DNA from: Gordonia liuliyuniae
GTDB taxonomy: Bacteria > Actinomycetota > Actinomycetes > Mycobacteriales > Mycobacteriaceae
NCBI RefSeq assembly: GCF_021739025.1
Contig: NZ_JAKKOT010000002.1
Span: forward strand, 558,001 to 622,000
Direction of reading: 5' to 3'
DNA: 64,000 bases
Part shown: in pieces, positions 4,707 through 48,714 of the stretch
Position numbering within the stretch: position 1 is the stretch's first letter
Layout of the letters: each line of letters begins with the position of its first letter
The notes under the pieces: generated by a model
Databases searched by the model: none
Told to the model about the DNA's origin: nothing
What the model saw: the letters and a program-made list of their open reading frames with translations, nothing else
Translations under genes and position numbers: made by a program

Positions 4707-5726
4707 TCAGGAGAACTGCACGAGCGCCGTGCACTTGCCGAACACGCGTTTGCCGTTGACCGTCGCACCGAACGTGATCAGTCCGCGCTTGGTCTCCGGG
4801 TACAGCGTCTTGATCTTCGCCGTGTACTCGACGAAGGCCGCATCTGTCGGCGGAACGTAGACGGCGCTCGAGAAGCGGGCGCTGAGCTCGCGGAATGCGG
4901 CGGGATCGCCGACGAACTCCGACAGGTAGCCGGCCGCTGTGCCCAGGGTCAGCATGCCCTGCGCGACCACGGTGTCGAGCTTCGCGGCGGCGGCGAGCTC
5001 GTCGCTGTAGTGGATGGGGTTCGGGTCGCCTGCGACGCCGACGTAGTTGACGAGGTCGCCGCGCGTGAACTTCTGCCTGCGCGGCGGGATCTCCTGGCCT
5101 TCGGTCAGTGAGTCGAACGCGATCGCGCCGAACGCCCGCGGCTCGTCGTCGGGGATCTCGGCGGCTTCAGCGGGGACCAGCGGCAGCACGTGTGACCCAG
5201 CAGGCGAGAACATGACGTCGTCGACCATCGACTGGAACTCGTCGGTCAGACCGTCGCCGGACTCCCCGGGGCCGGCGAGCGTGGTCCACGACTCTTGCAT
5301 GACGCCCTTGTCGAGATCGCGGATGACAGTCTTGCCCGTGAACAGGTCGGCGCCGGCCGCGGACTTGTAGGAGTCCAGCGACACGTCCGACTTGAGGCGG
5401 TCGCCCGCGGTGACCGGCTTGTGGAACACGAACCGCTGCTCCACCTGCAGGACACCCGACTTCAGCGGGTTGCCTGGGATCATCTCGAACAGCTGGGCCT
5501 GCGCCTTGGTGCCGTCGAGGACGACGATCGTCAACGGTGCGAGCAGCCGGTCGTGGCCTGCGGCGGCCGACTTCGCCTCGTCCCAGTGGACGGGGTTGTC
5601 GTCGTGCAGGGCCCGAGCGAACTCGCGGATCTTCTCGCGGCCGACCTCGTAGTAGTCCTGAGTCGTGAACACCTTGCCGATCTCTGCTTCGATGGCCTTG
5701 GTGCGATCGGTTCCACTACTAGTCAT
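4707..5726 (-). CDS. Fused HadA/HadB-type (3R)-hydroxyacyl-ACP dehydratase
   Basis: A 339-residue protein with two hot-dog domains. The N-terminal half (residues about 10-160) resembles HadA (QDYYEVGREKIREFARALHD). The C-terminal half (about 205-339) carries the R-hydratase motif YVGVAGDPNPIHYSD with its catalytic Asp and His, as in HadB. The expected reaction is dehydration of 3-hydroxyacyl thioesters in FAS-II/mycolate elongation, or of 3-hydroxyacyl-CoA as for other double hot-dog proteins such as Rv0216; the sequence does not decide between them. A TAGAAT -10 box on the minus strand (5740-5735) lies so close to ATG 5726 that the transcript is probably leaderless. Confidence 0.85.
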   Translation of the reverse strand: MTSSGTDRTKAIEAEIGKVFTTQDYYEVGREKIREFARALHDDNPVHWDEAKSAAAGHDRLLAPLTIVVLDGTKAQAQLFEMIPGNPLKSGVLQVEQRFVFHKPVTAGDRLKSDVSLDSYKSAAGADLFTGKTVIRDLDKGVMQESWTTLAGPGESGDGLTDEFQSMVDDVMFSPAGSHVLPLVPAEAAEIPDDEPRAFGAIAFDSLTEGQEIPPRRQKFTRGDLVNYVGVAGDPNPIHYSDELAAAAKLDTVVAQGMLTLGTAAGYLSEFVGDPAAFRELSARFSSAVYVPPTDAAFVEYTAKIKTLYPETKRGLITFGATVNGKRVFGKCTALVQFS

Positions 5727-13440: not shown

Positions 13441-14083
13441 GTGAAGAAGTTCATCGGCGTCATGTGCGTTGTTCTGGGCGCGTTGATCAGCGTCGCCGCG
13501 TTCGGCGTCCCTGGTGATGCGTCGGCTGGTCCGACGCGGTCGTTTGCTGACAAGTCCGTGACGCGTCATTCTGATGATGGGTGGACAGTACAAACTGTCT
13601 AAGTCGGGGGAGAAGATCCGGAGCGTGCCGGCGCTCAGTCGTGGGCATGGTTCGTATGAGGCGTTCTTGTCGTTGCGTGGTGCTGCGCGGATGTCGGGGT
13701 CCGGGACGGTGCCGGTGGACGCCGCTGTCGTCTCGACGGGCTTCCAAGTCTCGTGCCAGTGGCAGATGGACGGCGTCAACCTCGGGGTCACCGGCGGCCC
13801 GACCGCGCAAATGTCCATCTCCTATCCGCCCGCGATCGTGCTCGGCGCGCAGGTGATGCCGAACATTTCGACAACCCTGAAAAATGGTGTGTCGATCGAT
13901 GTCCCGTTCGGGCAGAAGCCGTTGCAGGGTCCGTCGGCTGGTGTCCGATTGGACGGAGTCCGTGTGGAGATCTCCGGATGCGTCGGCGCACGCCCAGCTG
14001 TGCGGGCGTATGTGCGGGTGGCGATGACGAGCAAGGCGAATGACAACACGTTCAACCTGTACGGCAAACCCCACCTGCTCTAA
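13441..14083 (+). pseudogene. MspA-family porin, frameshifted by one base (left copy)
   Basis: MspA-type porins are octameric beta-barrel channels in the mycolate outer membrane. GTG 13441 opens a signal peptide (VKKFIGVMCVVLGALIS, then DASAGP). The frame runs to WTVQTV and a stop at about 13602. The rest of the protein resumes in the +1 frame at KLSKSGEKIRSVPALS and ends at 14083 with NTFNLYGKPHLL. Comparison with the second copy at 47616 points to one extra base, C13591. The two copies differ at about a dozen of some 160 residues. MspA features include the late ISGCVG and the C-terminal beta-strands. Either the gene is dead or the base is a sequencing error. Confidence 0.8.
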
Positions 14084-14130: not shown

Positions 14131-14478
14131 ATGATGGCACGTAAATCAGTAGGGAGCGTCGCAGCGGTCGTCGCGGTCGCGGGTGTGACCGCATCGCTGG
14201 TCGGTACTGGTGAGGCTGATGCGGCGACCCGCCACGGCATCAAGCTCTCGCATTCGCAGACTGTCGCGGTCTCCCAGCACGGGTTAGGGAACGCGTTCTC
14301 GGCGATCCCGTACATCCCGAACCTGGTCTACAACCCGGGCTGGGGACGCGGTATCCAACACGCTGCGAACGATGCGGCCCGCCACGGCGGCTGCATCAGC
14401 ATCGGGATCATCACCAGCCCAGGAGAATCCAATCTCGACTACGTCAGCGTCTACCCAGCACGATCCTGTGCACGCTAG
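14131..14478 (+). CDS. Small secreted protein of unknown function
   Basis: A 115-residue protein with an export signal (hydrophobic core VGSVAAVVAVAGVTASLVG, cleavage after EADA near residue 31). The mature part is about 84 residues with just two Cys, in HGGCISIG and ARSCAR, likely disulfide-linked outside the cell. I do not recognise the family. AGGAAA precedes the tandem ATG at 14131/14134; the second ATG is equally possible. It lies 47 bases behind the porin gene and 54 bases before the next gene, so it is probably co-transcribed. No counterpart is present in the second module copy. Confidence 0.7.
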   Translation: MMARKSVGSVAAVVAVAGVTASLVGTGEADAATRHGIKLSHSQTVAVSQHGLGNAFSAIPYIPNLVYNPGWGRGIQHAANDAARHGGCISIGIITSPGESNLDYVSVYPARSCAR

Positions 14479-14532: not shown

Positions 14533-14916
14533 ATGACCACCAACACCAGCACGCAACCGCTGACTACTCCTGATCGGCCCAAGCATTCACGCCAGGCGCA
14601 GGCTCAGGATCATCAAACCGGCGCCGTTACGTCGCCAGTAACCAGTCCGCCGCCCCTTCCGCCTAGTAGCGCCGGTCAGGAATCGCCGGGTGTGGATCGG
14701 TCAGTGTCGGTGTGGACGATGTTGCTGTTCATCGCTGGGTGCGCGATTTTGGTGGTCGCTGCGTGGAATCTGCCGAACCTGATCCGGTGGGGAGACGACT
14801 ACGGAACCGTCCTGGTGTTCCTCGCGTTCTTTATGGTGATGTCGATCGGTGGCCGCTGGTTCTGGACCGGTATCGACGCCATCTGGAGCGCTGTCCGCGG
14901 CAAGGACCAGTCGTGA
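14533..14916 (+). CDS. Small protein with a Pro/Thr-rich cytoplasmic arm and two membrane helices
   Basis: A 127-residue protein of unknown family. Residues 1-55 are polar and rich in Thr, Gln and Pro. Two hydrophobic helices follow (VWTMLLFIAGCAILVVAAWN and VLVFLAFFMVMSIGGRWFW), then a short basic tail. GGGGGA precedes ATG 14533. The stop overlaps the GTG start of the large secreted protein by four bases (GTGA), so the two are translationally coupled. This suggests it works with that protein, for instance as a membrane partner in export; that role is inference only. Confidence 0.75.
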   Translation: MTTNTSTQPLTTPDRPKHSRQAQAQDHQTGAVTSPVTSPPPLPPSSAGQESPGVDRSVSVWTMLLFIAGCAILVVAAWNLPNLIRWGDDYGTVLVFLAFFMVMSIGGRWFWTGIDAIWSAVRGKDQS

Positions 14917-17486
14917 CCCGCGCGAACAAGACCGCTCGCATGCCTAGCGGGGCGAGACGTCGTGGTCCGGCTCTGGTGGCTGGTATTGGGACACTCGGTT
15001 TCACTGGTGCGATGTTTGCTGCCGGGTTCACCGGGGGTGCTGGTGATGCTGGTGCGGATGCGTTGTGTGATCAGATGCGCGCCCAGTACGGGCCGAGCTG
15101 GCCCTGCATTAGCGTGCCGACCTACACGCCGCCGCCGACGATGCCGACCCAGCCGAGCACTCCGAATGCTCCGGGAGCCCCGTCGGGGAACGGACCGGTC
15201 ATCGGCGGTGATCCCGGCCCGGGGCCTGGTCAGGGCAACGGCACACCCATCATCGGCGGAACCACCCCAGGACCCCGCGCGCCAGGAAACACGCGAGCTC
15301 CCGGGAACACGCACGTACCCGGTGTACCGACCAGACAGGCACCCGGTGTGACCACGGTTGCACCGGCTCCGACCCAGCGTGAGCGGCCCGGCCAGTCCGA
15401 TATCGCCCCGTTGCCCGGACGTACAACCGCGCCTGCGGATGTGCCGGTCGGGCAGCCGCATCCCGGATCGAGCAATGAAGCGTTTCTAAGTCCGTCGACG
15501 GACGGTGAGCCGACGATCCGGCTGCCGATATGGGTGATCGCCGGGGCTGCGGCCGTGGCTGCGGCCAGCCCGCGCGGGCGGTCGCTGCTCAAGCGTGGTG
15601 GTTCCACGCGAGCGACGGTAGGTCCGTCGCGAATGGTGTTGATGCACGACGAATCCTCGCCCACCACCTACCGGTTCGCGATGAACGTCCCCGACGGCGG
15701 CTACACCAAGGTCAACCCGGACGGGTCTGCGACGGTCTATGACAAGGACGGCAACGCGATTCGCCAGGTCGCGCGCCCGTGGGCGTTCGACGCGGCCGGG
15801 CGGCCACAAAAGACGTGGTACACCGTTGATGAGAACGGTGACCTGGTTCAGCACATCGAACCAGCAGACAACGCACTGTTTCCGATCCTGGCTGATCCCA
15901 CCGAGACTACTGGCGCGGCCGCTAGCGCTACCGCTGGCGCGTCGGTTGGTGCCTCGGCCGGTTCTGAAGCGCCAGCGGGAGAATCGGCAGGTGAGGGTGA
16001 CAATGCCATAGCCGGGATGCTGACACCACTGGTTCAGGGAGGCTCGACCGCGAACGGGCTGGGCCCGGAAGCAGGAGCACCCGCTACCCCCACACAGCCT
16101 GAGACCGCACCCGATCACATCCCCAACGCATTCGGAGTAGGCGAGCAGAAAGCTGAGCAACCAGCCCCAGATTCATCGGCACAGACCAACTCTGATGCGT
16201 TGGGTGATCTCATGAATCCGTCGTTCGACGGATCGGCGACTCCGGAGTCGTCTGAGCCTGAGTTCAATCCGTACAACCCGCTCACCTATCCCGAGACCGG
16301 TCAGGGCAGTGACGGGCAGACCCAGTCGGATCAGGCCCAGTCTGATGCGTTGGGCGACTTGTTGATGCCCTCGTTCGACGGGTCGGATAGCCCGGAGTCG
16401 TCTGAGCCTGAGTTCAACCCGTACAACCCGCTCACCTACCCCGAGACCAGTCAGAGCGGTGACGGGGACGGGCAAACCCAAGCGGATCAGGCCCAGTCGG
16501 ATGCGTTGGGTGAGCTCCTGATGCCCTCGTTCACCAAGGAGCCTCAGCCCGACGGGCGCGTCGATGCTCCTGCTGCGGGTCAGTCGATGACCTATACCGA
16601 GTGGCTGCGGTACACCAACAATCAACGGTTGGACGGCAGAGTCCATGAGCGGGTCGCCGACGACGGCACTCTGTCCTACTACGATCTGTCTCGCGGCCCC
16701 AACGGCGAACAAATCGAAGGCCCCGTCACCGGCTTCGGCACCGCCCTCGAGAACGAGACCGTCTACAACTTCGGCGACGGAACCGGCAAAACCGGGACAG
16801 GACAACCAGCAGTACAAGACACCAACGGCAACTGGTGGGTCATCAACCACAACGGCCCGAACGGGAGTTTCACCAGGTCAGCGGTCGTCAACGGTGAGAA
16901 GCTGGAGATCGCGGTCACCCCGCTCCCGCACGGTGGCTACCTAGAGTACGACCGTAGCGGCACCAACATCCTGCGCGAGTTCGACCGCCACGGAAACCTT
17001 ATCGGCGCATACCGTATCAATCCCGACGACCCTGAAGATTCCATCCCGCGCCATATCGGCAAATGGCTCCAACAGCCCGACCGGGCATTCATTATCAGCG
17101 AGGGCGGCACCGAACTCGGCGCGCTCGGAGCAGGACTAGCTGAGGCAGCCGACCGCGCCAGCGGATCCCAAGCCGCAACCGTCGCCCGCTGGGCAAAACG
17201 ATTCAATAGAGCAGGCGTAACCGGAACAGCCCTGACCGAAGGCGCGCAGGCTTTAACCGGAGAAAAGCCCCCAGTACAGGCAATAGCGGACGGCATCGGA
17301 ATCGCCTCTGCCGGCTACATTGGAGGCACAATCGGGGCGTCTGTGGGAGGTCCCGTGGGAGCTGCCGTCGGTGCCTACACCGGAGCTCTCCTGTACGAAC
17401 ACAAGCAAGGCATAATCGACGCAGTGAAAGACCCAGTCGACGGCATGAAAAAGCTCGGCGGCACCATCGTCGGCTGGCTCAGCTAA
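14913..17486 (+). CDS. Large secreted polymorphic-toxin-like protein with C-terminal glycine zipper (left copy)
   Basis: An 857-residue protein. Order of parts: an export signal or anchor (about 18-45, ending ADA); a conserved two-Cys block ALCDQMRAQYGPSWPC, then PTYTPPPTMPTQP; a long Pro/Gly/Thr linker; a second hydrophobic segment (about 206-222); a domain with VNPDGSATVYDKDGN and LFPILADPTET, a type common in actinobacterial toxin-like secreted proteins; an acidic repeat region (about 427-540); a globular C-terminal part; and a hydrophobic Gly-rich tail (about 795-830; GGTIGASVGGPVGAAVGAY). The Gly-zipper tail suggests membrane insertion. The first 60 or so mature residues nearly match the protein at 46202. 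GTG 14913 overlaps the preceding stop. The toxin role is inference. Confidence 0.75.
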   Translation: MTRANKTARMPSGARRRGPALVAGIGTLGFTGAMFAAGFTGGAGDAGADALCDQMRAQYGPSWPCISVPTYTPPPTMPTQPSTPNAPGAPSGNGPVIGGDPGPGPGQGNGTPIIGGTTPGPRAPGNTRAPGNTHVPGVPTRQAPGVTTVAPAPTQRERPGQSDIAPLPGRTTAPADVPVGQPHPGSSNEAFLSPSTDGEPTIRLPIWVIAGAAAVAAASPRGRSLLKRGGSTRATVGPSRMVLMHDESSPTTYRFAMNVPDGGYTKVNPDGSATVYDKDGNAIRQVARPWAFDAAGRPQKTWYTVDENGDLVQHIEPADNALFPILADPTETTGAAASATAGASVGASAGSEAPAGESAGEGDNAIAGMLTPLVQGGSTANGLGPEAGAPATPTQPETAPDHIPNAFGVGEQKAEQPAPDSSAQTNSDALGDLMNPSFDGSATPESSEPEFNPYNPLTYPETGQGSDGQTQSDQAQSDALGDLLMPSFDGSDSPESSEPEFNPYNPLTYPETSQSGDGDGQTQADQAQSDALGELLMPSFTKEPQPDGRVDAPAAGQSMTYTEWLRYTNNQRLDGRVHERVADDGTLSYYDLSRGPNGEQIEGPVTGFGTALENETVYNFGDGTGKTGTGQPAVQDTNGNWWVINHNGPNGSFTRSAVVNGEKLEIAVTPLPHGGYLEYDRSGTNILREFDRHGNLIGAYRINPDDPEDSIPRHIGKWLQQPDRAFIISEGGTELGALGAGLAEAADRASGSQAATVARWAKRFNRAGVTGTALTEGAQALTGEKPPVQAIADGIGIASAGYIGGTIGASVGGPVGAAVGAYTGALLYEHKQGIIDAVKDPVDGMKKLGGTIVGWLS
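16191..16535 (+). repeat. In-frame tandem repeats, 150/156 bp plus a partial unit
   Basis: Unit 1 (16191-16340) and unit 2 (16341-16496) each encode about 50 residues beginning SDALGDL and containing PEFNPYNPLTYPET. A third partial unit (16497-16535) encodes SDALGELLMPSF. The units are acidic and rich in Ser, Gln and Asp and form a spacer inside the large secreted protein. They could change copy number by recombination without breaking the frame. Confidence 0.85.
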
Positions 17487-17528: not shown

Positions 17529-17846
17529 ATGAGTGAAGGAACACTCTCATGGATTGTCTTGATCGGCTTCATTGTCCTATTCGTAGCGCCAATGTTTGCT
17601 GTTCGCCTTATAGAGAAACTCCGTATGCTGTGGTCTGTTCTATTAGTGCTCGCTGGATCCATCCCTGTAACCGTAGCTATAGTTGTCGACTCTGGAGTTC
17701 TTGTTGGTCTCGGCATGATTCCTGTAATGGTCGTCGGATTATGGGGGTGGGCGTTTGTTCAGGCGAACAATTATCATTTCACGAAGAAGAAGTTGAATTC
17801 TCAGTTTCCTCGAATATTTCGCGATAACAAGAATGAATTGAAGTAG
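17529..17846 (+). CDS. Small three-helix membrane protein, candidate immunity protein (left module)
   Basis: A 105-residue protein with three hydrophobic helices (LSWIVLIGFIVLFVAP, VLLVLAGSIPVTVAIVV, GLGMIPVMVVGLWGWAFV) and a basic C-terminal tail. It is preceded by a good ribosome site (AGGAACGAGG) and lies 42 bases behind the large secreted protein. Its codon use is visibly more AT-rich than its surroundings, a sign of separate acquisition. A polytopic protein directly behind a protein with a membrane-inserting tail is the arrangement of pore-forming toxin immunity genes. The right module has a different four-helix protein in the same place. The immunity role is inference. Confidence 0.7.
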   Translation: MSEGTLSWIVLIGFIVLFVAPMFAVRLIEKLRMLWSVLLVLAGSIPVTVAIVVDSGVLVGLGMIPVMVVGLWGWAFVQANNYHFTKKKLNSQFPRIFRDNKNELK

Positions 17847-17888: not shown

Positions 17889-18386
17889 ATGAGTGATGGG
17901 GATCAGGGGCTTGCTGGGTCTCTTAGGGTGCAGGGGTTTATCGACGGGGGTCTGGATTCGGCCAGTTATCAGCCCGTTCCGGAGTTGTGGGCGCGGATTC
18001 CGGCGGAGGCGATGGATGTTGTTGCTCCGGCCAATCGTATTGGCAGAGGTTGGTCACCTACCTCGGTGCTCATCGAGTGCAGGTTGGGTGCGATGCCGGG
18101 AGATGAGGTCGTCACGCTCGGTGTCGAACACGAGCTCCGGGACGTATTCTCAGGGAACGGTAGCGTCCGTCCACTGGCCGATATCCCGGGCCGTGGAAAG
18201 ACTGTCGGCCTAGCGGGAGGTTTCCTCTACGAGGGAATGGACCTGTGGTCAGACACACAGTACGTCTTCGACTCTAGTCGTCTCGTGCTGAGACAGCAGA
18301 CGTTCACCTGTGAACTCTCGCGTCGAAACGAATACATCGACGCAATGCGTGAAATCCGCGACTGGTTTATGACAATCGTGCAGTAG
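17889..18386 (+). CDS. Hypothetical cytoplasmic protein, 165 aa
   Basis: I do not recognise the family. The protein has no signal peptide or membrane helix. It shows an alpha/beta pattern (ELWARIPAEAMDVVAP, then TSVLIECRLGAM) and ends in a helix with aromatic residues (REIRDWFMTIV). The layout is faintly like LpqN/LpqT-type single-domain proteins, but without confidence. It lies 42 bases downstream of the membrane protein in the same direction, so it is probably the last gene of the left module and might also contribute to protection or regulation. ATG 17889 has a weak ribosome site. Confidence 0.6.
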   Translation: MSDGDQGLAGSLRVQGFIDGGLDSASYQPVPELWARIPAEAMDVVAPANRIGRGWSPTSVLIECRLGAMPGDEVVTLGVEHELRDVFSGNGSVRPLADIPGRGKTVGLAGGFLYEGMDLWSDTQYVFDSSRLVLRQQTFTCELSRRNEYIDAMREIRDWFMTIVQ

Positions 18387-43017: not shown

Positions 43018-43248
43018 ACCGAGTATCTAACGTGGTGGGTGTCCGGGTACGCGACTCGGATGCCCAGATCGGTGGGGTGAGGCTCACACCAAGCTGCCGC
43101 AGTTTTGGCTCGGGAGGGGACTGGCCGCCCTACCGCTTCTGGACGCCCTGGAAGCTGATTGAGAGCTGCTGCGAACCGTCGCTGTTTAGAGGCCTGCCTG
43201 CAGGGTGATCCACGGGCCGAGCATCTTCGACAGCAAGGAACCTCCGCA
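43018..43248. other. Junction between core gene and IS110 remnant
   Basis: I see no gene in these 231 bases. The right half is probably the left end of the IS110 element preceding its transposase, since no other feature is seen there. Confidence 0.4.
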
Positions 43249-43738
43249 ATGCCAGATCGCCAGCAGGTCCACGTCGGAATCGACGTCGGCAAGACCGCAC
43301 ACCACGTGTGCGCCATAGACGAGAACGGATCAGTGATCGTCAGCCGCCGGGTCCTCAACGACCAGTGCGACCTCGAAGAGGTCATCTCCCAAATCGTCCC
43401 GGCAGAAAGAGAGGTCGAGGCCACTTGGGCTCTCGACCTCACCAACGAACTCGCCGCCATGGTGATCACCACACTGCTCAACAGCGGTCAGACAATCAAG
43501 TACGTACCCGGGGTACTGGTCAACAGCATGTCTCGGACGTTCCGCGGTGAAGGCAAAACCGATGCACGCGACGCGAAAGTCATCGCCGAAACCGTCCGAC
43601 TACGCGGCGACCTCGCCACCGTCAGCGGGCCAGACGGGCTCGTCAACACTCTCACCATCTTGACCAGCCACCGCGAAGAACTCAACGCCGAATGGGTAGC
43701 AGGGGTCAACCGGATCCGGTCACTGATCGTATCAATCT
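43249..43738 (+). mobile_element. IS110-family transposase, 5' part only, cut by an ISL3 element
   Basis: ATG 43249 starts an IS110-type DEDD transposase: QVHVGIDVGKTAHHVCAID (first Asp), then EATWALDLTNELAAMVI and GKTDARDAKVIAETVRLR. After about 163 residues the reading enters the ISL3 left end at 43739 and stops at 43764. The C-terminal Ser-containing domain is missing and is not found beyond the ISL3 element, so DNA was lost as well as interrupted. Confidence 0.85.
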
Positions 43739-45190
43739 GGCTCTTCGCCTTTGAGAGTGCGTAGCTGATGTCCGGCGGTGTCGGCGGTGACCACAAGATG
43801 TAGGCGGGCCCTGGGGTGTGAGTATGAGAGTTCCTACACACCACACTCACACGACCAGGACCCATGGACGAGCCTACTTGCGCTGTTGCTGACACGATCT
43901 GCCGAACCATCGAACTTGGCGTCGCGATTACCGGAGCGGGGATCGATCGCGACGGTTCTACGCATATCTTCTGCGAGGTTCGCGATCCTGATCCGAGATG
44001 CCCCGAGTGCGCAACTGCAGGTCAAGCACGGGATCGAGTCGACCGGGTCTTGACTGACGCCCCGGCGGCCGGGCACCGGGTTCTGCTGCACGTGGCGGTC
44101 CCACGCTTCGTCTGCCACGCTGCGGACTGCTCGAAATCGATCTTCCGCGCTGACATCAGCGGCATTGTCCGGCCCCGAGCGGCGGTCACGAGGCGGACAG
44201 AACGTTGGATCCTGCGGCGCATTGTGATCGACAAGATGAGTGTGGCGGCCGTCGCCGCGAACCTCGGGATCGCCTGGAAGAGCGTCAATCAGATCGCTGT
44301 CGATGCGGCCCGCGGACTCGCCTACGATGGCGGTCATCTCGACGGTGTCCGCCACCTCGGTGTGGACGAACACAAGTGGAAACACGTGCGCGGACAAGGC
44401 GATTCAAGCTGGGTGACCGTGCTGATCGACCTGACCCCAGTCATCGACTGCACCGGTCCGGCCCGGCTGCTCGACATGATCGCCGGACGGTCCAAACAAG
44501 TCCTAAAAACGTGGATGACTGCCCGCGACCAGCGGTTCCGGGATCGAGTGAAGGTCGTGGCGATGGACGGGTTCACCGGCTACACGAGCGCCACCGCCGA
44601 AGAACTCCCGAAGGCCCGGATCGTGATGGACCCGTTCCACGTCGAGCTTCTCGCCGGCGAGAAGCTCGACCGCTGCCGCACTCGCATCCAACAGGCCACC
44701 TGCGGCCACCGTGGCCGCACAGGCGACCCCCTCTACAGAATCCGACGGATCCTGCATACCCGCACCGACCTGCTCACCGACAAGCAGAAGATTCTGCTGT
44801 TCGAGTCGTTGACCAGCCACGATGAACACGTCGCAGTCGACGTCACCCACCAAGTGTATTTGCAGGTCATCGCCGCCTACGAGCATCCGCGCCGTCGCGA
44901 GCGCAAGAAGCTGATGTGGAAGATCCTCACACGAATCCGCGCCGGCCTGCCTCCCGGCCTGGACGAGTTGGCTCAACTCGGCCGCACCCTGTGGAACCGC
45001 CGCAAGGAAGTCCTGGCCTACTTCGACGTCGGCGTCTCCAACGGACCCGTCGAAGCCATCAACGGACGCCTGGAACACCTACGCGGCATCGCACAAGGCT
45101 TCCGCAACCTCGACCACTACATCTTGCGGTCACTACGACACTCCGGACAACTCGCCGAACGCATCAACGCACTCTGAAATCCGAAGAGCC
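43739..45190 (+). mobile_element. ISL3-family insertion sequence, complete
   Basis: Terminal inverted repeats of about 24 bases: left GGCTCTTCGCCTTTGAGAGT from 43739, and the right end, read inward from 45190, GGCTCTTCGGATTTCAGAGT, sharing GGCTCTTCG and AGAGTGCGT with three mismatches between. One transposase gene lies inside. ISL3 elements usually make 8-base target duplications, but the flanks here (ATCAATCT and ACAAATCG) do not match, so a deletion or recombination probably followed insertion. Confidence 0.88.
43864..45177 (+). CDS. ISL3-family transposase
   Basis: A 437-residue transposase. The N-terminal zinc ribbon shows CPEC and CHAADCSKS, followed by a helix-turn-helix (MSVAAVAANLGIAWKSVNQI). 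The DDE catalytic core has HLGVDEHKWKHVRG, VVAMDGFTGYTSATAEELPK and VSNGPVEAINGRLEHLRGIA, with the acidic residues expected for ISL3. The ends of the gene fall just inside both inverted repeats. No frameshift is seen, so the element may be active. Confidence 0.92.
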   Translation: MDEPTCAVADTICRTIELGVAITGAGIDRDGSTHIFCEVRDPDPRCPECATAGQARDRVDRVLTDAPAAGHRVLLHVAVPRFVCHAADCSKSIFRADISGIVRPRAAVTRRTERWILRRIVIDKMSVAAVAANLGIAWKSVNQIAVDAARGLAYDGGHLDGVRHLGVDEHKWKHVRGQGDSSWVTVLIDLTPVIDCTGPARLLDMIAGRSKQVLKTWMTARDQRFRDRVKVVAMDGFTGYTSATAEELPKARIVMDPFHVELLAGEKLDRCRTRIQQATCGHRGRTGDPLYRIRRILHTRTDLLTDKQKILLFESLTSHDEHVAVDVTHQVYLQVIAAYEHPRRRERKKLMWKILTRIRAGLPPGLDELAQLGRTLWNRRKEVLAYFDVGVSNGPVEAINGRLEHLRGIAQGFRNLDHYILRSLRHSGQLAERINAL

Positions 45191-45621: not shown

Positions 45622-45801
45622 CTACGGAAACGGTCCGTATTGCAGGAACCGTCGTATCCAAGGGTGGCGCTCCATCCATGCACTCATTCGGACACCGTTC
45701 TCGCTCTCGGCCTGCTGACGCAATCTCCCTTCGAGGAATTCGCGCATTCTCGAAAATATTCCACTTTTCCCCTCGGGGTTATTCGCACTCAATTCTTCCA
45801 C
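45622..45801 (-). CDS. Small basic hypothetical protein at the end of the right module
   Basis: GTG 45801 opens a 59-residue frame (VEELSANNPEGKSGIFSRMR, then RHPWIRRFLQYGPFP) overlapping the 3' end of the membrane-protein gene by 23 bases. Purine-rich AAGGAAAAGGGA lies just upstream. It has a charged helix and an aromatic C-terminus. I do not recognise it. The overlap suggests it belongs to the module, but it has no likeness to the last genes of the left module. Confidence 0.45.
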   Translation of the reverse strand: MEELSANNPEGKSGIFSRMREFLEGRLRQQAESENGVRMSAWMERHPWIRRFLQYGPFP

Positions 45802-46189
45802 TCCCTTTTCCTTTTGCTGTTGCCGCGACCCAGAGATCAACTGCGTTACCAATAATGCAGGCCACACCGATGCCGATTATAATTGATGAGAATATCGCAC
45901 TGTCACCAATTGTGTATCTGAATGAGCCAAAGGAAACGAGCCCGACTCCCGCGGCGATACATAGCGAGGAGAAGACAAGCCCGGGGAGGAGCCAACGCAA
46001 TAGGGCGATAACCCCTATAGCCACCAGAACAATAAGTGATAGCCACACTCCAGAGCCGATGGGCTGCGGATCGCGGAATATCCAGGACACTAGAACGCCG
46101 ACTCCTATAAAGGCCAGCGCAACGACCACTATTGAGGCCACATGCTTGGGCGCCAACGTCGGCACATCTCGATCGTCTGCCATCTTCAC
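45779..46189 (-). CDS. Small four-helix membrane protein, candidate immunity protein (right module)
   Basis: A 136-residue protein with four hydrophobic helices (VASIVVVALAFIGVGVLVSW, VWLSLIVLVAIGVIALLRWL, FSSLCIAAGVGLVSF, AIFSSIIIGIGVACII). GGGAGG lies upstream of ATG 46189, which is 12 bases after the stop of the large secreted protein. The DNA is unusually AT-rich for this genome. It holds the same position as the three-helix protein at 17529 but is unrelated in sequence, which is what one expects if each protein matches its own secreted partner. The immunity role is inference. Confidence 0.7.
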   Translation of the reverse strand: MKMADDRDVPTLAPKHVASIVVVALAFIGVGVLVSWIFRDPQPIGSGVWLSLIVLVAIGVIALLRWLLPGLVFSSLCIAAGVGLVSFGSFRYTIGDSAIFSSIIIGIGVACIIGNAVDLWVAATAKGKGSGRIECE

Positions 46190-46201: not shown

Positions 46202-47578
46202 CTATACCAGATCTCGGATGTCAGACTGCCCACCGTTTGGGCCTTGCGCCGAGTCGGGGTTATGATCTGGCCCACCCTGCCCCGGGGTGGGGCTTTCCTG
46301 GGGCTCCTTTTTCGGATCTTGCGCGAACGCTCCACCGTCACCCTCGTCCCCTTCGGTGCCGGACCCGCTTCCATTATGATCCGACTGGTCCGGCTGTTCC
46401 GTACTCCCCCCAAGATCTGGTTGTTCTGGTTGTTCCGGCTGGGTTGGTTGTTCTGGCTGGGCTGGTTGTTCCGGCTGGGTAGGTTGTTCTGGCTGGGCTG
46501 GTTGTTCCGGTTGTTCCGGCCGGGCTGGCTGTTCGGGTTCCGGGTCCGTAGGATCAGGCGCCTTCTGTGGGTGCCCGTCCAAGCCATTCTTCCACTCGAA
46601 GAACCCTCTAAGGAATGGATCCGTTAGGAATTCCTTAGCGCCCTCCGTAAGGAACTTCGATAGAAGCTTCCGAAGCACGCCCCAAACAGCCTGACCGAAG
46701 ATCAGCTCGCCCAGGGATCTCGCTGCGAGGCCAGCCAGCCATGCAGCCGCCCCGGCAAGTGCGGTCTCTGGAAACGCCGCGAGAATACCTATTGCAAGTA
46801 GTGTCGTAATTGCCACCATGAGGATTGATTTCCCAATGACGCCCAGGACTCTTCCTGACGTACCCTTAAAGAGCCCTCCACCGACACAGCCGCCGTCGTC
46901 GTGGTGGCCTAGGATGCAGAATCCCATCTTTTGGATGGACCGTGTCCCTTCGTCTGGCGAAGGGTTGCGCAGGTTGAAGTTTCTGGGGCTCTCTGGGTTG
47001 TGGTTCGGCAGGGTCTGGACATCGGCCGGCGTGGGCTTGAGGTCCGGAATCGTCGAATCGGGGGCGGTGCGGTCAGGTGAGCCGGTCGAACCGGGGGCAG
47101 TCGTCCGGTACGGGTCGGATGGCTGATCGCCACGTGAGTCGGATTCTGATCGCTGCGCGCCCTGGGTAGGAACAATCGGTGTCCCGTTACCCTCCCCAGC
47201 AGATGGTCCCGCGTCTCCTCCGATAACCGGACCATTGCCCGACGGTGCGCCCGGTGCGTTCGGGGTGGTCGGCTGAGTGGGCATGGTCGGTGGCGGTGTG
47301 TAGGTCGGCACCGATATGCATGGCCAGGCCGGTCCATGCTCGGCGCGCATCTGGTCACACAGCGCATCGGCGCTCGCGCGGCCGGCGCCGAATCCCGACA
47401 CTAGGACAGCGATCATCGCAGCGAGCAGGCCGACGCAGACGGTCACTGAGACCGCTTGCACCGTCCGGCGCCTACCTCCTGACCGACGGCCAGAGTTTCT
47501 GCTCACGCGCGATCGCCCAAGCACGTCTGGACAGACATCGTCTATCGCTGCGTCAGCATGATTGCTTCGCATCTTCAC
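46202..47578 (-). CDS. Large secreted polymorphic-toxin-like protein (right copy)
   Basis: A 458-residue protein. Order of parts: basic N-terminus, hydrophobic export segment (about 40-65) ending ASADA; the conserved block ALCDQMRAEHGPAWPC then PTYTPPPTMPTQP and NAPGAPSGNGPVIGGD; a polar linker; a middle part with GFCILGHHDDGGCVGGG; a strongly hydrophobic region (about 245-305) with two or three helices; and a long PEQP-type repeat with an acidic tail. Up to the VIGGD motif it nearly matches the left protein at 14913, after which the two are unrelated. It lies 37 bases behind the porin gene. GTG 47578 with AAGGAG upstream is preferred over ATG 47572. Confidence 0.75.
   Translation of the reverse strand: MKMRSNHADAAIDDVCPDVLGRSRVSRNSGRRSGGRRRTVQAVSVTVCVGLLAAMIAVLVSGFGAGRASADALCDQMRAEHGPAWPCISVPTYTPPPTMPTQPTTPNAPGAPSGNGPVIGGDAGPSAGEGNGTPIVPTQGAQRSESDSRGDQPSDPYRTTAPGSTGSPDRTAPDSTIPDLKPTPADVQTLPNHNPESPRNFNLRNPSPDEGTRSIQKMGFCILGHHDDGGCVGGGLFKGTSGRVLGVIGKSILMVAITTLLAIGILAAFPETALAGAAAWLAGLAARSLGELIFGQAVWGVLRKLLSKFLTEGAKEFLTDPFLRGFFEWKNGLDGHPQKAPDPTDPEPEQPARPEQPEQPAQPEQPTQPEQPAQPEQPTQPEQPEQPDLGGSTEQPDQSDHNGSGSGTEGDEGDGGAFAQDPKKEPQESPTPGQGGPDHNPDSAQGPNGGQSDIRDLV
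46418..46545 (-). repeat. Pro-Glu-Gln-Pro low-complexity repeat
   Basis: The coding strand carries a run of short units encoding PEQP, with PAQPEQPTQPEQP alternating. It forms an extended Pro-rich spacer after the hydrophobic region of the right secreted protein. Slippage in such a tract would change its length in frame. Confidence 0.85.
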
Positions 47579-47615: not shown

Positions 47616-48218
47616 TCATAGCAGGTGCGGCTTGCCGTAGAGGTTGAAGGTGTTGTCGTTGGCCTTAGTCGTCATGGCCACACGCACATACGCCCGTACT
47701 GCCGGGCGGGCGCCCACGCACCCGGAGATCTCCACGCGGACCCCGTCGAGCCGGACACCCGCCGCAGGACCCGCGAGAGCCTTCTGTCCGAACGGGACAT
47801 CGACCGACACCCCGTTCTTGAGCGTTGTCGAGATGTTCGGCATGACCTGCGCGCCTAGAACGACGGCGGGCGGATACGAGATCGACATCTGGGCAGTCGG
47901 ACCAGCAGTAATCCCGACGTTCACACCGTCCATCTGCCACTGACAGGACACCTGAAACCCGGTCGAGACTACGGCCGCGTCCACTGGAACTTTGCCCGAT
48001 CCCGAGATCTCCGCGGCACCACGAAGGGACAGGAATGCTTCATACGATCCATGACCGCGACTGAGCGCCGGCACGCTCCTGATCTTCTCCCCAGACTTCG
48101 ATAGCTTCACTGTCCAAGCATCGTCGGAATGCTTGGATAGTGACTGATCGGCAAACGCGCGGGCGGGTCCGGCCGACGCCTCACCGCCGCCAGCAAAACC
48201 TACAAACGCAACAAGCAC
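47616..48218 (-). CDS. MspA-family porin (right copy), start codon uncertain
   Basis: MspA-type outer-membrane channel. Mature features are FADQSLSKHSDDAWTVKLSK, VVSTGFQVSCQWQMDGVNVG, VEISGCVGARPAVRAYVRVA and the end NTFNLYGKPHLL. The only in-frame start I find is GTG 48218, giving 200 residues but a clipped signal peptide with no basic residues (VLVAFVGFAGGGEASA). By alignment with the left copy (GTGAAGAAG), the natural start would be at 48248, where the codon is GCG (GCG-AAG-AGA). So this copy may have lost its start codon or may use an unusual one. The body is intact and nearly identical to the left copy. Confidence 0.8.
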   Translation of the reverse strand: MLVAFVGFAGGGEASAGPARAFADQSLSKHSDDAWTVKLSKSGEKIRSVPALSRGHGSYEAFLSLRGAAEISGSGKVPVDAAVVSTGFQVSCQWQMDGVNVGITAGPTAQMSISYPPAVVLGAQVMPNISTTLKNGVSVDVPFGQKALAGPAAGVRLDGVRVEISGCVGARPAVRAYVRVAMTTKANDNTFNLYGKPHLL

Positions 48219-48248
48219 CGCACCAATGACGCCAAAAACTCTCTTCGC

Positions 48249-48714
48249 CGAGACTCCCCTTGGGGGCAGTAGTATTTCGACGTTCTAAAGTACATACAGG
48301 GCTGTGCGATGATCTTAAAGGCCCCCGCAGCCCTGGCTGATTCCTCCCTGAACCGCCGAACTGGACAGTCTGGACGGTACGCCCGGCCTAGTGTCGGAGC
48401 AATCGCACGGCAAATAGTGTGACAGGCATCATACTTCGAATCCAACGGAAGCCGGTGGGGCGTCTTGCTACTCAATGAACCGCAAACTGCGCCCCAACTA
48501 CTAGCGGTTCTCAATCAGCGCGGGCCTAGCCTGGCCGAGCCTAGGCTAGCGGGGTTCGCGGACACAGCGTCGTTCCCGAACGCGCGCAGCGGGCACAGCT
48601 CGAAGACACTCGGCGACTGAGGGCCCACTATCCCGCGTCGACGATCGGAACCGTGTCCGGATCGGCGACGGGTCGTGGACAATAGCGATGTTTGGACGAT
48701 CGATGGTCACATAT
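48249..48714. other. Non-coding stretch upstream of the right module
   Basis: No gene seen in these 466 bases. It should hold the promoter of the right module, reading leftward. A small stem CTAGCCT (48526-48532) with AGGCTAG (48543-48549) is the only structure I can point to; it might end transcription of the frameshifted LysR gene. Confidence 0.45.

Follow-up and report, generated by a model that had tools for sequence, protein, structure and literature searches.

Gene layout of the right locus

The DNA analysed in this work is a stretch of 64,000 nucleotides (nt) from Gordonia liuliyuniae (assembly GCF_021739025.1, contig NZ_JAKKOT010000002.1, positions 558,001 to 622,000), which will be referred to as the window and whose numbering is used for all positions unless another locus is named. 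A preliminary description of this stretch drew attention to two loci, left and right, each encoding a secreted protein and an adjacent membrane protein. The right locus, which is the subject of this work, lies on the minus strand (48284 to 45779) and consists of closely spaced genes for an MspA-family porin, a secreted protein with a conserved N-terminal region (the head), and a small membrane protein (Table 1). We will refer to the secreted protein as the effector, since the locus probably belongs to a family of polymorphic toxin-immunity loci, found in Gordonia and its relatives, that has a mycomembrane porin as a partner.

The open reading frame (ORF) of the effector is intact and comprises 458 codons when counted from its GTG; an ATG two codons into this frame, which lies about 9 nt 3' of an AAGGAG sequence, is the likelier start. 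The AAGGAG falls within the gap of 43 nt between the mspA stop and this ATG, and 18 nt separate the effector stop from the probable start codon (ATG) of the membrane protein gene. The product of the first gene matched the MspA family in the Pfam search with E 6.9e-33 (114.5 bits against a cut-off of 22.9), and no PDB chain was matched by it at E 0.01 using phmmer. No ATG, GTG or TTG precedes the signal peptide in its frame (window 48200-48290), and the options for its start are a CTG (near 48266) and a GTG (48218), the latter within the hydrophobic stretch. The membrane protein gene is present as a single copy in this genome, and its G+C content is 53%, as compared to 44% for the left candidate and 65% for the window. 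A promoter scan was uninformative (1 found against 0.8 expected).

Table 1. Positions in the window of the right locus, the parts of its effector, the neighbouring transposase and the left locus.
Feature	Positions	Strand	Remarks
MspA-family porin gene, first in right locus	47619..48284	-	Stop 47616-47618; start uncertain; Pfam MspA PF09203
Secreted effector with conserved head	46202..47578	-	Likely start ATG 47572
Effector: signal peptide or N-terminal membrane segment	47369..47572	-	Ends ..GRASA ahead of DALC; hydrophobic segment 43-59; D preceded by A-x-A in almost every aligned relative
Effector: head	47174..47368	-	DALCDQMRAEHGPAWPCISVPTYTPPPT...GEGNGTPI; both Cys invariant in alignment of relatives; taken as mature N-terminus
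Effector: Pro-rich linker	46925..47173	-	DNA similarity to left copy stops where linker begins
Effector: Cys motif	46874..46924	-	GFCILGHHDDGGCVGG; common to right copy and Jongsikchunia
Effector: helical effector domain	46580..46861	-	One hydrophobic, one weakly hydrophobic, two amphipathic helices (low-confidence model and hydropathy); homologous to L056
Effector: PEQP-type repeat spacer	46391..46537	-	Tandem array at 46417-46539
Effector: polar Gly/Asp/Pro-rich tail	46205..46390	-	Ends ..DIRDLV (..NPNELV in the relative from Jongsikchunia)
Four-helix membrane protein, proposed cognate immunity protein	45779..46189	-	Likely start ATG 46183
ISL3-family transposase, flank, outside system	43864..45177	+	PF01610 E 8.5e-51; about 600 bp past immunity gene
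Left-locus mspA, comparator	13444..14083	+	Frameshifted near 13590
Left-locus two-helix partner gene	14533..14916	+	
Left head protein	14913..17486	+	Partner helix, pretoxin module, Gly-rich hydrophobic C-terminus
Left three-helix membrane protein	17529..17846	+	Candidate left immunity protein
Second downstream gene, left locus	17889..18386	+	36% identical to gene downstream of paralogue L007

Because an A-x-A segment precedes DALC in nearly all of the aligned relatives, the mature effector most likely starts with the sequence DALCDQMRA..GP.WPC.SVPTYTPPPT and extends to GNGTPI, and this portion constitutes the predicted conserved head. The earlier report of two or three helices and a PEQP region that are missing from the left copy was confirmed: one strongly hydrophobic helix is found at residues 252-268, the second is weaker, and two more are amphipathic. 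The AlphaFold models of the right pair are poor, with a predicted local distance difference test (pLDDT) score of 53 for the effector and 59 for the other model. The PEQP array consists of 9/18/36-nt units; as Pro-rich or repeat spacers are frequent among members of this family, it represents a type of spacer and not a hallmark of the protein. The linker, the Cys motif, the helices, the PEQP array and the tail of the right effector were all absent from the left copy.

Conservation of the head and variation of the regions that follow it

The genome contains five head genes, each adjoining an mspA gene, and the four other copies gave matches of E 5e-37 to 7e-42, so that the family resemblance, which was first noted for the left copy, is far beyond chance. 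Of its nine MspA-family genes, the remaining four are located elsewhere. The heads of the right and left proteins are 88% identical over 66 amino acids (aa), whereas the DNA encoding them is only 77% identical (198 nt, 66 codons) and thus falls short of the high identity that was anticipated ahead of the switch point; for mspA the corresponding DNA identity is 81%. The nonsynonymous divergence (dN) of the head is about 0.09 and the synonymous divergence (dS) about 1.5 (dN/dS of about 0.06), and the low dN in the face of a high dS indicates that the head is held by purifying selection.

In the DNA alignment of the two copies, identity stops directly after GNGTPI, near 47174. For the 600 nt past the head, the right-left comparison gave a score of 17 against 12.6 +/- 1.4 for shuffled sequences, and comparison with the three remaining paralogues a score of 13 against about 12.7; similarity was also at background in the 135 nt ahead of the right head. 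In contrast, the other four paralogues, including the left, are mutually alignable on both sides of the head (downstream scores 208-263 against about 13.5), which leaves the right copy as the outlier among the five. Although the edge is sharp, which the preliminary description had named as support for an exchange of cassettes, it alone cannot distinguish an old exchange from the fusion of a conserved module with a domain that is unrelated, and, because the head is near synonymous saturation, it does not show any recent exchange between left and right. Recent gene conversion or exchange between these loci was rejected on the basis of the head dS.

The two loci also differ in the genes adjoining the head. 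The left locus contains, between mspA and the head gene, a small two-helix gene without a counterpart on the right. The membrane proteins have, as originally stated, four hydrophobic helices on the right and three on the left (17529-17846) by hydropathy, and their sequences show no relation to each other. In comparison with the right and L007 copies, the left mspA carries an insertion of one base (window 13574-13600), which places it in two frames, and the mspA of paralogue L006 is split at the same place (around 5330-5400) with identical flanking peptides. The left and L007 mspA genes (window 13600-14080; L007 3494-4150) are 96% identical with a dS of 0.17, as compared to 85% and 0.74 for their heads, a hint that mspA may have been recently homogenised between these loci.

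Heads were detected in 18 of 59 Gordonia genomes, one of which has seven or more copies, and in 24 of 401 genomes from the family (6 of its 31 genera). In an even sample of the order, they were limited to two of 397 genomes, both Gordonia. Among the 53 head matches, which include contig ends, broken copies and one broken copy counted twice, an mspA match was present within 1.7 kb upstream in 42, and a small two-helix protein gene directly preceded the head gene likewise in 42. No description of this head family was found in the open-access literature, most subscription papers being outside that search, and the porin-linked family is apparently undescribed. Small secreted proteins of 115-139 aa adjoin mspA in several loci (window 14131-14478, L056 712-1131, and also L041, L037 and L030) and possibly form one family with a role in the system. 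In genome G029 (L036-L042) there are seven or more head loci, of which several are shortened and one is split by an IS3-type element.

Across these matches, one head is joined to many unrelated C-termini. In most members the Pro-rich linker is followed by a short hydrophobic partner helix (W.IAGAAA..A.PR), and many contain a conserved pretoxin module ending in ILADP, after which the C-termini are unrelated. The C-terminus of L033 is a Tox-REase-5 domain (30.9 bits against a curated cut-off of 25), some others carry the nuclease-like motifs VEIKSG or VDLKTG, and several, including that of the left copy, contain Gly-rich hydrophobic stretches. A common hydrophobic module (F.IDDF or LVDD...AEYG), which may be a translocation module, precedes differing end domains in L008, L027, L112 and L114.

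Pairing of effectors with downstream genes and the counterpart in Jongsikchunia

The preliminary description had proposed that the effector and the membrane protein form a cognate effector-immunity pair, and this is supported by two results. First, the type of C-terminus predicts the downstream gene across the family: the C-termini are homologous in 26 pairs of loci, and in 13 of these the downstream genes are homologous as well, whereas 5000 permutations of the loci gave 0.9 such pairs on average and never more than 6. As related loci are not independent, this result is strong but does not provide a clean probability. The downstream partners vary with the C-terminus and not with the head.

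Second, the right pair recurs in Jongsikchunia kroppenstedtii, and for the pairing of the right copy we regard the sequence evidence from this recurrence as decisive. In this locus (L056), which was identified by the head search of named genomes, mspA (27-677) is followed by the small secreted protein (712-1131), a head protein (1217-2566) and a membrane protein (2577-2951). The L056 effector shares with the right copy the GFC.LGHH..G.C.GG motif, the hydrophobic domain and a Pro-rich tail. Their effector domains are 36% identical (z 29 against plain shuffles and 17 against hydropathy-preserving shuffles), and the membrane proteins, both of which have four helices with similar spacing, are 32% identical over 120 aa (BLASTP E 3e-5; z 13 and 11, respectively). 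The right-type domain was absent from 58 other Gordonia genomes; it was found in two of the 401 family genomes, the second of which has a match that fits the Jongsikchunia locus, and in one of the 397 order genomes, namely its own.

The mspA and head of the right locus are nearest to paralogues from its own genome and close relatives (at best 84% and 88%, respectively), as against 36% and 61% identity to Jongsikchunia, and in the tree the right mspA falls in a clade of 11 rows with 100/100 support. Judged by these sequences the right locus is a mosaic, whose front (mspA and head) follows the lineage and whose back (effector domain and membrane protein gene) groups with another genus; the relatives show this better than does the edge between left and right. 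However, the effector (36% identical), the membrane protein (32%) and mspA (36%) have diverged to about the same extent between the two genera, and an old shared locus whose front became homogenised inside each lineage would therefore explain the mosaic no less well than if the back half had been transferred.

The right copy, L056, L098, L099 and L108 have neither the two-helix gene nor the partner helix. A partner-like helix is present in all 36 loci that have the two-helix gene and could be assessed, and L041, with the helix but not the gene, is the sole exception of its type (36/0 against 1/5, Fisher p 7e-6, by hydropathy and profile; the distant members were scored by hydropathy, partly by eye, and the loci are related and not independent). 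A first pattern test, which was too narrow, had given p 0.011. This association points to a joint action of the two-helix protein and the partner helix, neither of which would be needed by the right copy. In our reading, that copy represents a rarer sub-type that does without the common two-helix partner and probably acts on membranes.

In the region flanking the right locus, the N-terminal part of an IS110-type transposase (PF01548 E 9e-38) adjoins the ISL3 transposase (window 43159-45177).

A proposed porin-linked toxin-immunity system and its alternatives

The reading of the right locus as a member of a polymorphic toxin-immunity family with a porin partner draws upon its intact effector and membrane protein genes, the conserved head, the interchangeable C-termini, the paired conservation and the linkage to mspA, all of which are established at the level of sequence. 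From these we infer a course of secretion, docking on or export through the porin, toxicity by membrane damage, and immunity. The signal peptide would carry the effector over the inner membrane, after which its mature N-terminal head, with the two invariant cysteines, would dock on the mspA-family porin encoded just upstream, and the porin would either display the effector or let it out across the mycomembrane. The part following the head, the swapping of which is evident from the family, would carry the toxic activity; in the right copy the Cys motif and helical hydrophobic domain, followed by the repeat spacer, probably insert into or disrupt the membrane of a related neighbouring cell. The four-helix protein, which is paired with the effector by conservation, would bind the toxin in the membrane and in this way shield the producer. 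In a large survey, the immunity proteins of polymorphic toxins were nearly all cytoplasmic (PMC3482391), and a polytopic membrane partner is for this reason unusual and favours a membrane-acting toxin.

Several observations weigh against this reading. The hydrophobic domain of the right effector is internal and is followed by the spacer and tail, unlike the usual C-terminal position of a toxin; neither the right effector nor the membrane protein gave any match over the cut-off in Pfam, NCBIfam or PADLOC; and a profile search of PDB yielded weak matches only, mostly to helical repeat or 'DHT03' proteins and to one transporter. Searches of plasmid, phage and viral collections also gave no match. 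Furthermore, only two examples of the effector domain of this sub-type are known, in two genomes, and the start of the right mspA is doubtful and the left mspA frameshifted, on account of which an intact adjoining porin may not be needed at every locus.

A more specific proposal is that the MspA-family porin is the site of exit or docking in the mycomembrane for polymorphic toxins, with the head threading into or plugging the porin, as a route independent of the type VII (ESX) systems, in two sub-types that differ in the presence of the two-helix helper. We advance this tentatively, as a possibility that is rather less probable than the family assignment itself. It has long been asked how proteins get across the mycolic-acid outer membrane, and it is for small solutes that the MspA-type porins are known; as most of the toxin genes are located behind their own mspA gene, they offer a testable candidate route over the mycomembrane. 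The family would also add polymorphic-toxin antagonism to Gordonia and its relatives, together with new effector and immunity families.

Alternatively, the family might comprise polymorphic surface proteins, such as adhesins, phage-variable antigens or envelope scaffolds, in which the head anchors variable extracellular domains at the porin and the downstream genes encode chaperones or anchors in place of immunity proteins. The Pro-rich and repeat spacers and the Cys-containing domains are suited to surface proteins, and no enzymatic motif was recognised within the effector domain of the right copy; however, the curated nuclease-toxin domain of L033, the nuclease-like motifs in other C-termini and the dependence of the downstream partner on the C-terminus make this explanation unlikely. 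It is slightly less likely still that the right sub-type is a stand-alone, freely released pore former resembling bacteriocins, which borrows the head only for its export. Such a protein could be suspected from the five loci that have neither the two-helix gene nor a partner helix, and from the Cys near their C-terminal hydrophobic part, but these five retain the head and, with one exception, the adjoining mspA gene, and therefore belong to the same family, and the right protein, with its 458 aa, is large and contains a long spacer. Lastly, it is very improbable that the right gene is a decaying copy that has lost its partner gene and toxin module, with the hydrophobic part and tail as filler, for although its mspA has no ordinary start codon, insertion sequence (IS) elements are nearby and several family members are broken in other genomes, both the effector and membrane protein frames are intact and are conserved with Jongsikchunia at 32-36% identity, Cys motif included, and the head is under strong purifying selection. 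The assignment of the locus to a porin-linked toxin-immunity family is thus the explanation that we prefer.

Comparison with known systems

Pore-forming colicins and other membrane-acting bacteriocins combine a toxin domain of hydrophobic helices with an immunity protein that is a polytopic membrane protein. The right pair resembles the pore-forming colicins in its hydrophobic helical domain and polytopic membrane partner, but there is no sequence match, and its hydrophobic domain is internal, with a spacer and tail after it. TpsB is a single-chain barrel with POTRA domains. The type V or two-partner secretion systems (TpsA-TpsB and CdiA-CdiB), in which the gene for a dedicated porin-like outer-membrane protein adjoins that for a polymorphic toxin whose conserved N-terminal domain serves for docking (PMC3482391), are similar to the Gordonia system in layout only; in contrast to the single chain of TpsB, MspA of M. 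smegmatis, a mycomembrane channel, is an octamer of small subunits (PMC3377714).

Within the mycolic-acid bacteria, the nearest system is CpnT/TNT of Mycobacterium tuberculosis, where a C-terminal toxin domain is also linked to an outer-membrane channel (PMC8593097). However, CpnT is itself an outer-membrane protein that is exported by ESX-4 (PMC8593097), whereas the Gordonia system has a signal peptide, and its MspA-family protein is encoded by a gene of its own. The TNT domain was absent among the Pfam and NCBIfam matches of the right and left effectors, no formal search being aimed at ESX motifs or WXG100 genes.

The nearest known layout is that of MafA/MafB in Neisseria (PMC3482391), which has a conserved, lineage-restricted domain directly after the signal peptide, an upstream partner gene that is invariant and encodes a surface protein, polymorphic C-termini and an immunity gene downstream, as is also the case here. 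The Gordonia system differs in that its partner is a porin of the MspA family and not a lipoprotein such as MafA, a two-helix membrane protein gene usually lies between, and the host possesses a mycomembrane. Its head has no Pfam match, and neither the MafB-N domain (DUF1020) nor any other Pfam family was matched by the right effector. By this analysis, the Gordonia system is not a member of the MafB family but would appear to work in a manner like that of MafB.
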